The translations under genes and the position numbers were made by a program. A stretch of 64,000 nucleotides of DNA from a bacterium (GTDB lineage Bacteria; Zhuqueibacterota; Zhuqueibacteria; Residuimicrobiales; Oceaniaggregativiventaceae), in contig JAKQNP010000008.1 of the NCBI GenBank assembly GCA_029565675.1, positions 248,001-312,000 on the forward strand, written 5' to 3'. Below, piece by piece: positions 51,416 to 57,540 of this stretch (the stretch's first letter is position 1; each line of letters starts with the position of its first letter). The notes under the pieces were generated by a model that did not search any database, was not told the origin of the DNA, and saw only the letters and a program-made list of their open reading frames with translations.

Positions 51416-52996
51416 TTACAGAAGCATCCCTGCGATGGTTGCTGTCATCCACGATGCCAGTGCGCCGGCAAACATGGCGCGCAGAGCGACTTTCGAAAGA
51501 TCTGATCGCCGACCCGGCGCCAGGGCACTGATTCCGCCGATCTGGATACCGATCGAAGAGAAATTGGCAAATCCGCACAACGCATAGGTGGCGATAATCT
51601 CAGAGCGGAAAGAGAGATCAGCGGCGGTGATGTGGTGTGCCAATTCGCCATAAGCGACGAACTCGTTGGCCGTGATTTTGATCCCCAATAAATTTCCAAC
51701 CTGCATGGTTTCGCTCCAGGGAACGCCCATCAAAAAGGCCAGTGGCGCGAAAAGGGTGCCGAAAAAAGTTTTCAGACTGCCGGGGAAAATTCCGGCATAT
51801 TCGCCCCGCAACGGATTCAGTTCTCTTCCCAGCAAGCGGGCGTCGACCAGACGGTCGAAAAAGCCAAGCACGACATCAATAAATCCGATCAAGGCGATAA
51901 AGGCAACCAGCATGGCGCCCACATTGACAGCCAGTTTGAGACCGTCTGTCACTCCCTGTGCCGTGGCATCGAGAAGGTTTTCAGCTTTTTTCACCTCTGG
52001 AATTTTTACATCTCCGGCTGTTTGCGAATGCTCGGTTTCCGGATAAAAGATTTTTGCCAGCACCAGCGCCGCCGGTGCAGACATGACGCTGGCAGCGATG
52101 AGATGTCCGGCGTTGACACCCATACGGATATAACCGGCGAGAACGCCGCCGGCGATGGTGGCAAAGCCACCGACCATGATCGCGTGCAGTTCCGATTTGG
52201 TCATGCCGGGAAGAAACGGTTTGACCAACAGCGGGGCCTCGGTTTGCCCGACAAAAATATTGGCCGAACACGACAGAGTTTCAGAACCCGAAGTGCCCAT
52301 CGTCCAACGCATGAAGCGTGCCATCACCTTGACCAAAGCCTGCATGATGCCGAGATAATAGAGAATCGACATGACAGCCGAAAAGAAGACAATCGTCGGC
52401 AGGACTGAAAACGCAAACTGATAGCCAAATAGATCCACGTGATCTTGGCTGACCAGCTTGCCAAATAAAAAGGCGCTGCCCAGATCGGAGAGGCTGAGAA
52501 ATTTGGCGACCATTTCGCTGAAAATTCGCATCAAATCCTGCCCGGTTTTTCCCTTGTAAAACAGGATTCCCAAACCCAGCAACAGCCAGCCGGCAAAAAG
52601 ATAGCGGTGGATCGCCGCCTTTTTCGCAAGGTGAACCGGCAGATGCGCGAAAACGAGAATCCCAAAGAGGGCAACCGCGATTCCGAGTGTGCTCAGACCA
52701 TAGCCGAAGGCACTGACCACAGCCATGGCGGCGATCAGGATTGCCGTCCGCCAGACGTTTGTTTTCCGGTCAGAGCCAATCACGCGATCCTCAAAAGCAT
52801 ACAACAAAATCATCGCCGCCAGGACAAACAGTCCTATCCATGAAAGCCAGGATTTGCCGAGGATAATCGCAGCAAAGAGGAGCTGTAACGCAATTCCCCA
52901 AAAAACAGTTCGCAAGTTAATCGCTTTGCGGTTGGTGGAAAACAGCACGGCGATGGCGACGATGGCCAGCATTCCGGCTGCGCCGATGAATCTCAT
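51416..52996 (-). CDS. Concentrative nucleoside transporter (NupC/CNT family)
   Basis: An inner-membrane cation-coupled nucleoside importer. Conserved core: [20 protein letters not shown] followed by APLLVKPFL (substrate and cation residues), [21 protein letters not shown], and [17 protein letters not shown] with later [20 protein letters not shown]. These are the CNT motifs. At 526 residues it is longer than bacterial NupC (about 400) through additional N-terminal helices. The ATG at 52996 has AAGGAGGG upstream and overlaps the tdk stop as ATGA, so it is translated with tdk. Confidence 0.93.
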
Positions 52997-53568
52997 ACAC
53001 CCTCCTTGGAATCGTCGATTTCGTGGCAATGTCTGCAGCGGGCTTCATAGATGTCGGCGGCGCCGACGACCACCCGGTTGGAGTTTTTGTTGAGGCGCTG
53101 GGTTCGGTTGGCCGGATTGCCGCAGCGCGTGCAAATCGCCAGGGTTTTGGTGATGTATTCGGCCACCGCCAACAACTGCGGGATCGGTTCAAACGGTCGG
53201 CCGAGGTAATCCTGATCCAGTCCGGCGACGATTACACGTTTGCCTTGATCCGCCAGCCGTTGGCAGACATCGACGAGAGAAAGATCGAAGAACTGGGCTT
53301 CATCGATGCCAACCACTTCTGCATCGGCCGCTTGAGTGAGAATGTCCTGCGGTTTGGCAACCGGCGTGGATGGGATTCTCTGGGCATTATGTGAAACGAT
53401 GTGGTTGGCGGAATAGCGGTCGTCGATAATCGGCTTGAAGATTTTTACTTTTTGGCGCGCGATCTGGGCGCGCCTAATTCGGCGGATCAATTCCTCGGTT
53501 TTGCCGCTGAACATGGAACCGCAAATCACTTCAATCCAACCGGTTCCTTTTGGTACAATGCTGAGCAT
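52993..53568 (-). CDS. tdk: Thymidine kinase
   Basis: Phosphorylates thymidine or deoxyuridine for salvage. P-loop [15 protein letters not shown] (about 16-30), catalytic Glu in [11 protein letters not shown], and a C-terminal zinc finger (CTRCG and CRHCHE, four Cys/His). 191 residues, type II Tdk. GGAGGAT before the ATG. It overlaps the nucleoside transporter by four bases and follows udk by 84 bases; import and phosphorylation are therefore encoded together. Confidence 0.96.
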
Positions 53569-53652
53569 GGTCGGAAATCCTCCCCTTGCCGGCGTCGATA
53601 ATTCCGGTCAAAGCGGCCCTGCGCCGGAATCCAATTGCCTGGATCAAGTTTG

Positions 53653-54279
53653 TTAGTTTGTCGCCATTCTGAACCGTTGAAGAATCATTTGCACATTATG
53701 GGCGCTATCCTCTTCGCCGGAAACCGTGAGATCAGCCTGTTTTTGCGACGGCTGGACATACTCGAGGAACATCGGCCGTACGGTGCGCTCGTATTGTTGC
53801 AGCACGGATTCGATATTTCGCGATCTTTCGCGCATATCCCGGCGCAAACGCCGAATCAGACAAATATCGGCTGGTGTATCGACGAATATTTTATGATCCA
53901 GAAGACGGCAGAGATCGGGACGGCTGAGGATCAGGATGCCCTCGAGAATGACGATCGATTGCGGTGCATAGTGAGCCGTCTGTGTTTGTCTGAGATGGGT
54001 GGAAAAATCATAGACAGGATGATCGATGTCTCGCCCTTTTTTGAGCTGCTCGAATTGGCGAGCAAGCAGAGCAAAGTCGATTGCGTCGGGATGGTCAAAA
54101 TTTTCTCGACAGCGCTCTTCGTAGCTCAAGTGTGAAATATCGCGATAATAATGATCTTGCGACAGAACCTCACCTGCTCGAGGCTGCAGAGCATGGCGCA
54201 GAGCATTGGCCAGAACTGTTTTGCCCGATCCCGAGGCGCCGGCAATGCCGATTGTGATTACAGTTCGAGGGGAATCCAT
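53653..54279 (-). CDS. udk: Uridine/cytidine kinase
   Basis: Phosphorylates uridine and cytidine. P-loop GIAGASGSGKTVLANAL at the N-terminus, DHYYRDISH (substrate/catalytic Asp region), FDHPDAIDFALL, VYDFSTHLR, and GILILSRPDLCRLLDHKIFV with RRLRRDMRERSR. 208 residues. It lies between cdd (58 bases) and tdk (84 bases) on the same strand. Confidence 0.95.
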   Translation of the reverse strand: MDSPRTVITIGIAGASGSGKTVLANALRHALQPRAGEVLSQDHYYRDISHLSYEERCRENFDHPDAIDFALLARQFEQLKKGRDIDHPVYDFSTHLRQTQTAHYAPQSIVILEGILILSRPDLCRLLDHKIFVDTPADICLIRRLRRDMRERSRNIESVLQQYERTVRPMFLEYVQPSQKQADLTVSGEEDSAHNVQMILQRFRMATN

Positions 54280-54337
54280 AAAGGGTATCGGTTTTTATGA
54301 TTTTGTTGCCTTGATGCGGAGATCTGTGTCGAGTTTT

Positions 54338-54733
54338 CTATTCAGGCAGATCGCTGCGCTCAAAAGCCTGTGGCAGCAGATCCATCAATTTTATTTGCTG
54401 CACAGGTTGATCGTTTTCGATCAAGATGACGTCGATATTGCCAGCAAGGTCCCACAACATCTGGCGACAGGCTCCGCATGGCATGCACTTTTTTCGGGTG
54501 GAGGAGGCGATAGCGATGGCGTGAAAGATTTTTTCTCCTTCAGAAATCGCTTTGCTCAAGGCGACTCGTTCAGCACAAATCGTCAATCCCAATGAGCTCG
54601 ATTCGATATTGCATCCCGTGTAGATAGCACCGTCGCCGCCCATAAGCGCAGCGCCAACGCGGAAATTGGAAAAGGGTGCATGCGCATTTTCGCGCGCCTG
54701 ACATGCCTTAAGGACCAATTGGGCAATCGGCAT
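54338..54733 (-). CDS. cdd: Cytidine deaminase
   Basis: Converts cytidine to uridine. Zinc and catalytic motifs: TICAERVAL (C-A-E with the proton-shuttling Glu) and PCGACRQ (the Cys pair); NIESSSLGLT contacts the sugar. 131 residues from the ATG at 54733, which has GGAG 7 bases upstream; the TTG at 54748 would overlap the terminator upstream and is not preferred. Together with Udk and the transporter it forms a pyrimidine salvage set. Confidence 0.95.
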   Translation of the reverse strand: MPIAQLVLKACQARENAHAPFSNFRVGAALMGGDGAIYTGCNIESSSLGLTICAERVALSKAISEGEKIFHAIAIASSTRKKCMPCGACRQMLWDLAGNIDVILIENDQPVQQIKLMDLLPQAFERSDLPE

Positions 54734-54746
54734 CGACTGTCTCCAC

Positions 54747-54785
54747 AAAAAAAAGTCCGAATCCCTTGCAGCAAAGGATTCGGAC
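54747..54785 (-). terminator. Terminator after ssb
   Basis: A 10-bp stem GTCCGAATCC / GGATTCGGAC with an 11-base loop, and TTTTTTTT on the minus strand after it. It lies between ssb and cdd, so most ssb transcripts should end here, while read-through could still reach cdd. Confidence 0.9.
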
Positions 54786-54832
54786 GCAAAATAACAATTC
54801 GCCGTTTAAGAAACAACATAGAAGTTGGTCTG

Positions 54833-55279
54833 TTAAAACGGCAAATCGTCGCTGTCTTGCGCGCTCGGTTCGGCAAACTCGGCTGGTGCTTCATCCGCAG
54901 ACGGAGGTTGAGCATAAGAGGTGTCCCGATCACCGCGTGTGTCGAGCAACTGAATCTGGTCGGCAAGCACTTCGGTCGTATAGCGCTTGTTGCCGTCTTT
55001 GTCGTCCCACGACCGGGTGGTCAGCTTGCCTTCCACGTAAATTCGGCTGCCTTTTTTGGTGTATTTGGATACCACTTCTGCGGTTTTGCGCCAGACCACC
55101 ACGTTGTGCCATTCCGTCGACTCTTGCAGATTTCCATCTTGCCCTTTCCAGGATGTGTTGGTCGCCAATCTCAGATTGAGCACCGCTGCGTTTGCCTGGG
55201 TGTACTTGAGCTCTGGATCAGCACCCAGACGACCGATGAGAATCACTTTGTTCACGGTACCTTTGCTGTCATAGGCCAT
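54833..55279 (-). CDS. ssb: Single-stranded DNA-binding protein
   Basis: Binds and protects single-stranded DNA in replication and repair. OB fold with NKVILIGRLGADPEL, RLATNTSWKGQDG, EWHNVVVWRKTAEVV, GSRIYVEGKLTTRSW; then a Pro/Ala-rich acidic tail ending DDLPF, the partner-binding tip of bacterial SSB. 148 residues. Very strong ribosome site (AGGAGGAGG). Not linked to rpsF/rpsR as is common elsewhere. Confidence 0.97.
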   Translation of the reverse strand: MAYDSKGTVNKVILIGRLGADPELKYTQANAAVLNLRLATNTSWKGQDGNLQESTEWHNVVVWRKTAEVVSKYTKKGSRIYVEGKLTTRSWDDKDGNKRYTTEVLADQIQLLDTRGDRDTSYAQPPSADEAPAEFAEPSAQDSDDLPF

Positions 55280-55460
55280 GGGAAAATCCTCCTCCTGGTA
55301 AAAAAATAAAGTCTAAGAGTTATTTAGCAAAAAATAACGAAAAAGTCAACAAAAAAAGCGAAAAATAGAGAAAAAAGCTTCTGCCTGTTCAAATCCTGTT
55401 TGCAAATAAGGCGCAAGTTGTTTATACTTGCTGCGGTCGAGATTGTCAAAGGAGAACGAA

Positions 55461-56429
55461 ATGTTCAAGCGCGAATTCCGCCTGCTCGAGCAGCAAAAGC
55501 TCGAACTGGGCGATCAGCAATTCTGGGTCAACAATCCGTTGTCCCCTGCGCATCTGGAACCGTCGATCCGCCGATTGGGTCTTTTACATCCCCTGGTGGT
55601 TCGATCGCGCGGCACAAATTTTCAAATCGTCTGTGGTTTCCAGCGGGCTAAAGTCGCTCAACACATTTCTCTCGAGCATTTGCCCTGTTTTGTCGTCGAA
55701 GCATCCGATGATTGGCAGCTTTTCCTCTACTCCCTGGAAGACAATTTAACAATTCGCTCTTATAATCCAATTGAAATTTCCACCATACTGCACAAGTGCG
55801 GTGCGCAGTTCAACCGCTCTGATCAACAGATCTTGCAAGAAATTGCTCCGCGGCTCGGATTTGGCCAAAATCCGCGCATTCTCGAGCTCTACTCTCCTTT
55901 GCAGCAATTGGATCCGCGCTGGCATCAAGGTGTAGCTGACGGCAGCTTTTCGGTCGAGGTGGCATCGCAAATAGCCGGTCTTGACCAAAGCGCTCAGCAG
56001 GCCCTTTTCGCGGTCTATGATCAGTTGCGCCCGGGGAAAAATCTGCAACATGAGCTTTTACAGTTCTTGCAGGATTGCGCCAGGATCGGGAAAAAAACGA
56101 TTGCCGGTTTGTTGGCAGAAGGTGAGCTGGCCGACAGCTTGCAGGATGATGAATTGACAAACGCTCAACGCCTTGATCGCTTTCGGCAATCGCTGCGGCG
56201 CAAACGCTATCCGCGATACAGCCAAAAGGTAGAGGATTTCAACACCATTCTCAAACAGACCAAATTGCCGCCGACCATACAAATCCGCGAAACTCCCTTT
56301 TTTGAACGCGACCTCTATACCTTGCAGTTCCAATTCCGCAATCAAGGCGAATTCGATGATGCCCTTGCGGTGCTCGGCAATCTGCGCGATAACCGTTTGA
56401 TCAAACGCCTGGAAGAGTTACATGGATAG
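55461..56429 (+). CDS. ParB-like protein overlapping an SPL-like radical SAM gene
   Basis: 322 residues with a ParB/Noc-type N-terminal region: LEPSIRRLGLLHPLVVRS, VCGFQRAKVAQHI and SLEDNLTIRSYNPIE (about 30-120), which corresponds to the CTPase/nuclease-like ParB fold, then a helical HTH-like stretch (RSDQQILQEIAPRLGF). The C-terminal third (about 215-322) is basic and not recognised. The true start at 55461 is set by AAAGGAG. It overlaps the next gene by 8 bases. There is no ParA gene beside it, so chromosome partition is unlikely; an adapter or DNA/CTP-binding partner of the radical SAM enzyme is inferred. Confidence 0.75.
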   Translation: MFKREFRLLEQQKLELGDQQFWVNNPLSPAHLEPSIRRLGLLHPLVVRSRGTNFQIVCGFQRAKVAQHISLEHLPCFVVEASDDWQLFLYSLEDNLTIRSYNPIEISTILHKCGAQFNRSDQQILQEIAPRLGFGQNPRILELYSPLQQLDPRWHQGVADGSFSVEVASQIAGLDQSAQQALFAVYDQLRPGKNLQHELLQFLQDCARIGKKTIAGLLAEGELADSLQDDELTNAQRLDRFRQSLRRKRYPRYSQKVEDFNTILKQTKLPPTIQIRETPFFERDLYTLQFQFRNQGEFDDALAVLGNLRDNRLIKRLEELHG

Positions 56430-57540
56430 CGCTGCAGTTCCTTGTTTTGTGCCTGAAGAGTTGATCGTCGAGAAAGCTGTTGAGCATACTGATCTGGCTC
56501 AACGAATTCTCACGCGCTTTGCCGATGTCCCGATCGCCCGGGTCGAGGATGCCCAGCAAATCTGGCTGCAAGCCCAACACGCTCGCGTTCGTCATGAATG
56601 GCAGGGAAAGGTGCTGCTGGCGCGGCAACGAGGACCTTTCTTGCGCCTGTGCCCGGGGACCAAAAAGCATATTTGTTGTCTTTATCAAAACTTGGATGTG
56701 GCTGCCGGCTGTGATTTAAATTGCACCTATTGTATTTTACAGGGCTATCTGCAATCCTCACTGGTCACCTGGTACTGCAACCTGGAAGATCTCTACCAGG
56801 AAGTCGATCGCGAATTGACTTCACATCCGGAGCATTTTTATCGCATCGGCACCGGAGAATTGAGCGATTCGCTGACCTTCGATCCATGCACCCATTTGGC
56901 CGTTGACCTGGTGCGCTTTTTTCGCACCAGACGCAACGCCATTCTCGAGTTGAAGAGCAAAAACACCCACGTGGATGAGCTTCTCGAAGTAGACCATGGC
57001 GGGAGGACCGTCGTCTCCTGGTCCTTGAACGCGGCGCCAATCGCTCGCAGCGAGGAGGCTGCAGCTCCGGATATCGAAGCGCGCCTGCGGGCCGCTCGCA
57101 AAGTGCAGGAGGCAGGTTACTGGCTGGGATTTCATTTCGATCCGATGATCGATTACCCCGATTGGCGGCAGGGCTATCGCGAAACCGTGGACCGGCTGTT
57201 TTCCGCGATTCGCCCCGAGCAGATTGCCTGGATCAGTCTTGGCGCCTTGCGCTATCCGGCGGCAATGGATGAAGCGATCCGTAAAAACTATCCAGAGTCG
57301 ACGATTGTCCTCGGCGAATTGTTGCCGGGAATCGACGGCAAATACCGCTACCTGAAGACGATGCGTCTTGAAATGTTTCGCGAGATGGTTCGCTGGATTC
57401 GCGGCTATTCTGCGGCGCCCGTTGTTTATTTGTGTATGGAAAGTGATGAAGTGTGGCACAAAGCATTTGGCTGGTCTCCCGGATCGAGCGCTCGTCTGAA
57501 AGTGCTGCTCGATGACCGGGTGCGCTCAGCGCCAAAGTGA
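56422..57540 (+). CDS. Spore photoproduct lyase-like radical SAM protein
   Basis: Radical SAM protein of the SPL group, 372 residues. The cluster motif GCDLNCTYCILQG has C-x3-C-x2-C (Cys97, 101, 104) in the SPL style, followed by YCNLEDLYQEVD, GRTVVSWSLNAAPIA, KVQEAGYWLGFHFDPMI and DYPDWRQGYRETVD, all paralleling SPL order. But the segment that in Bacillus SPL reads with the hydrogen-donor Cys141 (CTSD) is here IGTGELSDSL: Glu replaces that Cys. It is thus probably not a classic thymine-dimer-type spore lesion lyase. No sporulation genes are near. It overlaps the ParB-like gene by 8 bases, implying a joint function. Confidence 0.85.
   Translation: MDSAAVPCFVPEELIVEKAVEHTDLAQRILTRFADVPIARVEDAQQIWLQAQHARVRHEWQGKVLLARQRGPFLRLCPGTKKHICCLYQNLDVAAGCDLNCTYCILQGYLQSSLVTWYCNLEDLYQEVDRELTSHPEHFYRIGTGELSDSLTFDPCTHLAVDLVRFFRTRRNAILELKSKNTHVDELLEVDHGGRTVVSWSLNAAPIARSEEAAAPDIEARLRAARKVQEAGYWLGFHFDPMIDYPDWRQGYRETVDRLFSAIRPEQIAWISLGALRYPAAMDEAIRKNYPESTIVLGELLPGIDGKYRYLKTMRLEMFREMVRWIRGYSAAPVVYLCMESDEVWHKAFGWSPGSSARLKVLLDDRVRSAPK

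Follow-up and report, generated by a model that had tools for sequence, protein, structure and literature searches.

This locus raises the question of what a ParB-like protein does beside a radical SAM enzyme of the spore photoproduct lyase (SPL) superfamily. Inspection of the window, by which we mean the whole 64,000-nucleotide stretch of DNA that was analysed, places the two genes on one strand with overlapping frames. The nearest named relative is a candidate division KSB1 MAG (75%).

55461..56429, + strand: gene for the ParB-like protein, 322 aa, with a ParB/Srx-type N domain, an HTH-like middle and a C-terminal domain (RYP, FE)
56422..57540, + strand: gene for the SPL-superfamily radical SAM protein, 372 aa, with an AF2 fold and 110.5 bits against PF20903 (gathering cut-off 27)

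The ParB-like frame starts at the ATG at 55461, with AGGAG ahead of it at 55450-55454, and its stop ends at 56429. The ATG of the SPL-like frame lies at 56422, and these coordinates confirm the 8-base overlap described in a sequence-only reading of this DNA. The same reading stated that no ParA lies near the ParB-like gene and that the cell shows no sporulation genes. The former stands, as the ORFs of the 50-64 kb part of the window include no ParA and canonical ParA-ParB pairs are encoded elsewhere in the same genome, on contigs C42 and C25. The latter holds as regards small acid-soluble spore proteins (SASP), families with no member in the genome and with B. subtilis as the positive control. 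Chromosome partition was rejected as a role for the pair given the canonical ParAB pairs elsewhere, and spore repair was rejected given a genome with no SASP. A defence system was also considered and set aside: PADLOC returned a weak ParB-domain match only and none for the enzyme, and the pair is kept single-copy. No viral contig was found to carry the pair; the SPL-family matches from phages (2) and plasmids (14) were all distant.

Upstream of the pair, and divergent from it, a minus-strand cluster at 51416-55279 encodes, as judged by sequence, a nucleoside transporter, thymidine kinase, uridine kinase, cytidine deaminase and SSB. A divergent polysaccharide deacetylase gene lies downstream on the opposite strand.

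The enzyme and its cysteines

Besides passing PF20903, the SPL-like protein scores 110.8 bits against TIGR04070 (SPL), below the equivalog cut-off of 400, and 59.1 bits against TIGR03886, below the cut-off of 437.55. Its AF2 model (pLDDT 94.8) matches SPL crystal structures (4rh0) with a Z of 37.8 over 325 residues at 2.2 Å, and non-SPL radical SAM structures reach a Z of 15 or less. The enzyme belongs to a distinct clade within the SPL superfamily, one that has a ParB-derived partner. The enzyme tree runs mainly along lineages, with its deep forks unresolved.

56650..56652, + strand: C77, aligned by hhalign and MAFFT with SPL S76(Gt), which is Cys in 4rh0; Cys in 98/103
56674..56679, + strand: C85-C86 of CPGTxxYxCCxY; Cys in 101/103 and 99/103
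56710..56733, + strand: CDLNCTYC, the SAM-binding [4Fe-4S] motif (C97, C101, C104); three Cys in 103/103
56857..56859, + strand: E146 in GTGELSD, in the column of SPL Cys140(Gt)/141(Bs) by alignment to SPL
57433..57435, + strand: C338 of CMESDEVW; Cys in 102/103, with E340 in 103/103

All residue counts refer to the 103 enzyme homologues that have the core columns. C97, C101, C104, D149, K180 and E340 are invariant among them. The assignment of CDLNCTYC as an SPL-type cluster in the sequence-only reading is upheld. The enzyme resembles SPL (TIGR04070, PF20903; 4fhc, 4rh0) in its fold, in the CxxxCxxC motif with its flanking Tyr (Y103, equivalent to SPL Y96 and kept in 102/103) and in equivalents of Lys174 and Ser195. 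It differs from SPL in having Glu or Gln for Cys141, four extra cysteines, a ParB-like partner and no spores. Two further differences concern position 105, the site of SPL Y98 and of the radical-relay Tyr99, which is I105 here and I or V in 90/103, and the SPL segment around K-R-R-Y-K, in place of which the enzyme family carries a shorter, different segment before the last helix.

The sequence-only reading took the absence of Cys141 to mean a new reaction. The residue itself is as described, with GELSD (E146) aligned to CTSD and the column occupied by Glu in 87 homologues, Gln in 13 and other residues in 3. The deduction, as it was argued, is weak. The C. acetobutylicum SPL is reported to take its hydrogen not from C141 but from C74, which lies across the pocket (PMC5368176); C77 aligns, by hhalign and MAFFT, at S76, a position that is Cys in the C140A/S76C mutant SPL of PDB 4rh0; and TIGR03886 proteins likewise have Glu in the Cys141 column (GENSD/GENGD). 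Taken alone, loss of Cys141 does not imply a new reaction. Since TIGR03886 proteins share the Glu, Cys in this column may be the derived state in SPL. The accompanying claim that the enzyme lacks a hydrogen-donor Cys holds for the Cys141 column and may not hold for the S76 column, where hhalign (E 6e-41) and MAFFT place C77 and phmmer places C86 instead. E146 itself probably serves in substrate binding or acid-base chemistry, not as the hydrogen donor.

Inspection of the alignment reveals a feature that the sequence-only reading missed. C77, C85 and C86 (CPGTxxYxCCxY) and C338 (CMESxxVW) are all present in 98/103 homologues, and the aligned SPL proper and TIGR03886 proteins do not have these cysteines. 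In one Omnitrophota homologue (L082), C77, C85 and C338 are all lost and His replaces E146; some of the extra cysteines are also missing at L125 and at the distant L132, L133 and L139. In the model, C77 comes just after strand 74-76, and C338 just after strand 334-337; by DSSP of the model and alignment, SPL proper stops where this second strand ends. Strand ends of this kind point towards the active site in TIM-type barrels. C77 and C338, placed by alignment, would lie on the active-site side of the barrel. A set of four cysteines close to an active site points to an auxiliary [4Fe-4S] cluster of the kind found in LipA. Lipoyl synthase and biotin synthase carry extra conserved cysteines from segments ahead of the SAM motif and towards the C-terminus. 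The enzyme resembles such auxiliary-cluster radical SAM enzymes in its conserved extra set, the cluster itself being a prediction, and no sequence homology to lipoyl synthase or biotin synthase was found at the extra-Cys motifs. Most likely, C77, C85, C86 and C338 together would hold an auxiliary Fe-S cluster. Alternatively, C77 by itself would serve as a relocated hydrogen donor.

Relatives outside the core family differ in several ways. TIGR03886 proteins ("spore photoproduct lyase family protein") are alike in superfamily, in their Glu and in belonging to non-spore-formers, and unlike in that they have neither CPGTxxYxCCxY nor CME; no ParB-like gene lies beside TIGR03886 at the one Deinococcus locus viewed. 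Long-form SPL homologues of about 425-475 aa at six loci (L126-L131) have Gln in the Cys141 column, the four extra cysteines and no adjacent ParB-like gene, and at two of these (L128, L131) the next gene resembles peptidase U32/tRNA hydroxylation proteins. A 623-aa protein of Fusobacterium vincentii (L168:2092-3963) is SPL-like radical SAM in its C-terminal half (PF20903 61 bits) and nucleosidase-like by eye, with no Pfam match, in its N-terminal half; a short-chain dehydrogenase gene follows it, and one lies just upstream of a similar SPL-like gene on a human gut contig (L169). On a Roseomonas plasmid (L172:273-2394), two overlapping tandem genes lie beside repB, one for a TIGR03886 protein and the other for a second SPL-family protein.

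The ParB-like partner and its pairing with the enzyme

The ParB-type N-terminal pattern that was recognised by eye is borne out by profile and fold. The ParB-like protein reaches 33 bits against PF02195 ParB_N (cut-off 26.3), aligns with the genome's own canonical ParB over 187 columns (hhalign prob 99.6) and falls below the cut-off of 58.45 for TIGR00180, with 34.7 bits. Its AF2 model (pLDDT 96.4) combines a ParB/Srx-type N domain with an HTH domain over residues 1-219. The closest structures are KorB (Z 12.6; 195 residues, 5.6 Å) and PadC (Z 11.8; 98 residues, 2.9 Å), and the HTH matches the Noc DBD with a Z of 7.3.

55635..55646, + strand: GFQR (G59..R62), aligned with the GERR (C2) CTP motif of canonical ParB
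55740..55745, + strand: D94-N95, equivalent to E-N of the ParB C3 motif ENxxR; E or D in 48/67, N in 48/67
56205..56213, + strand: RYP (R249-P251) of the C-terminal domain; R and P >90% conserved in 67 homologues

The ParB CTP site is retained at the level of its C2 motif, with G59 in 67/67 and R62 in 65/67 ParB-like homologues, and binding itself is predicted. The E/D-N pair of C3 is often not ENxxR and is degenerate in Desulfovibrionales and in HAD-linked families. The protein is thus like ParB, Spo0J, Noc, KorB and PadC in its N domain, its HTH fold, its GxxR and, in most members, its E/D-N. It is unlike them in having no adjacent ParA, an HTH that is neither basic nor conserved and another C-terminal domain, in which RYP and FE motifs peculiar to the family are nearly invariant. 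A match between this C-terminal part and the usual ParB dimerisation domain was considered and set aside: the strand order is similar by eye, the profile match is not significant (prob 0.8%) and a whole-model search listed no clear fold match. For the HTH, net charge has a median of about -1, versus +5 in the genome's own canonical ParB, and its recognition helix is neither basic nor conserved. Judged by these residues, a nucleotide-responsive partner is more likely than a sequence-specific DNA binder. With the Gly and Arg of the CTP motif kept and the HTH surface degenerate, the protein would most likely act as a dedicated nucleotide-responsive partner or as a substrate-presenting subunit.

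The core enzyme is present in 53 of 99 related genomes, single-copy in most, and in about 50 of the 53 the ParB-like and enzyme genes are adjacent on one strand. This count comprises 45 genomes by coordinates, with the ParB-like gene first, together with G000 and G001, where the genes overlap, G065 and G095, where they are adjacent on the locus view, and G033, where a ParB-like fragment lies at a contig end. The genes are unlinked in G054 and G086 and cut by contig ends in G080. The commonest gaps between them are -4, -1 and -8 nt. When scored with a ParB-like family profile, 51 of the 99 genomes have both proteins, 2 the enzyme only, 6 the partner only and 40 neither (p about 8e-19, kinship of the genomes ignored). 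The enzyme-only genomes carry a truncated partner (G012) and the partner fragment (G033), and all six partner-only genomes belong to family f11. At three loci from f11 genomes (L136, L137, L140), the ParB-like protein occurs with the long-form enzyme only, unlinked. Elsewhere, adjacent loci occur in Thermodesulfobacteriota, Myxococcota-labelled genomes, Spirochaetota and further lineages. For 14 genomes of Thermodesulfobacteriota, Omnitrophota, Fibrobacterota and SAR324 in which the enzyme has no adjacent partner, a full-length partner is encoded elsewhere in 13.

Recurrence of the coupled pair in related genomes and across phyla, on which the sequence-only reading had made its proposal depend, is therefore observed, and the consistent Glu that it expected in the Cys141 column is seen as Glu or Gln. 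Enzyme and ParB-like protein are paired far beyond chance, and the partnership is sufficiently conserved to count as real, usually as one operon, in many anaerobic bacteria of several phyla. The distance matrices of the two proteins correlate with r 0.88, with no species-tree control, and median identity is 21% for the ParB-like protein versus 39% for the enzyme. In families f9-f10, the long-form homologues have the full set of extra cysteines and no ParB-like partner detectable by profile search, so the partner is not needed by every enzyme member.

Neighbouring genes (GT2, HAD, galactokinase, SSB, pyrimidine salvage) vary by lineage; they hint at sugars or nucleotides and name no substrate. 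GT2 lies directly upstream of the pair at seven loci, of the enzyme alone at five and of an unlinked partner at one (L203), and HAD and galactokinase genes lie upstream in another set of loci. GT2 was rejected as an obligate third member: the orthologous gene is common, yet genomes that lack the core enzyme can carry it too, which leaves an association only. SSB adjoins the pair in KSB1 genomes and lies directly downstream of the enzyme at three Desulfobulbales loci (L076, L081, L091). In three Desulfobulbales genomes (L195, L198, L199), the unlinked ParB-like gene adjoins a RibD-like gene.

What the module may do

We favour, at a probability of about 0.45, a vegetative, vertically kept two-protein module made of a seven-Cys SPL-superfamily enzyme and a ParB-derived partner. 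The module is real and conserved, as seen in its modelled fold, family, residues, co-occurrence and operon. Within it, enzyme and partner would form a physical complex, and the ParB-like protein would supply a nucleotide switch. A nucleotide or nucleic-acid substrate is the least certain step, and we hold it to be somewhat doubtful.

An SPL-like DNA-lesion lyase, with its hydrogen donor moved to C77 and a ParB-like protein that loads it onto DNA or slides it along, would fit the SPL fold along the full length, the hhalign and MAFFT placement of C77 on S76(Gt), the C74 donor reported for C. acetobutylicum (PMC5368176) and the SSB genes of KSB1 and Desulfobulbales. Such a lyase is nonetheless quite unlikely here, as I or V stands for SPL Y98, the K-R-R-Y-K segment is swapped for a shorter one and the partner's HTH is not basic or conserved; it would also leave C85, C86 and C338 unexplained in a genome without SASP. 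The enzyme might instead modify a small molecule, sugar nucleotide or peptide, with the ParB-like protein as a small-molecule-responsive scaffold or kinase-like subunit and not a DNA binder, by analogy with the ParB/Srx fold of the free serine kinase SbnI. The upstream GT2 of several lineages with HAD and galactokinase in others, and the many acidic or basic invariant residues, are consistent with such chemistry, which we rate as unlikely on balance with GT2 also found where the core enzyme is absent and an HTH domain, matched to the Noc DBD, retained in the partner.

Were the ParB-like protein a mere autoregulator or chance operon neighbour of an enzyme that works alone, the partnerless f9-f10 homologues and the fast divergence of the ParB-like protein would be readily understood. 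Near one-to-one co-occurrence, even when the genes are unlinked, and parallel divergence speak against this, and we consider it very improbable. The two-protein module is the reading that we carry forward. A bolder version of it, to which we give a slim but real chance, would have a ParB-type CTP switch control or position an SPL-fold enzyme with an auxiliary Fe-S cluster. In non-sporulating anaerobes from several phyla, this enzyme would carry out a modification of a new type, possibly on nucleic acid.

Among the papers searched for ParB with radical SAM or SPL, none was found to describe the pair. If the reading is true, an unnamed multi-phylum family would use the SPL fold beyond spore repair and offer a naturally occurring parallel to the engineered S76C SPL. 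A ParB relative would then partner an enzyme, well outside chromosome segregation, and the ParB CTP-switch fold would extend to an enzyme complex.
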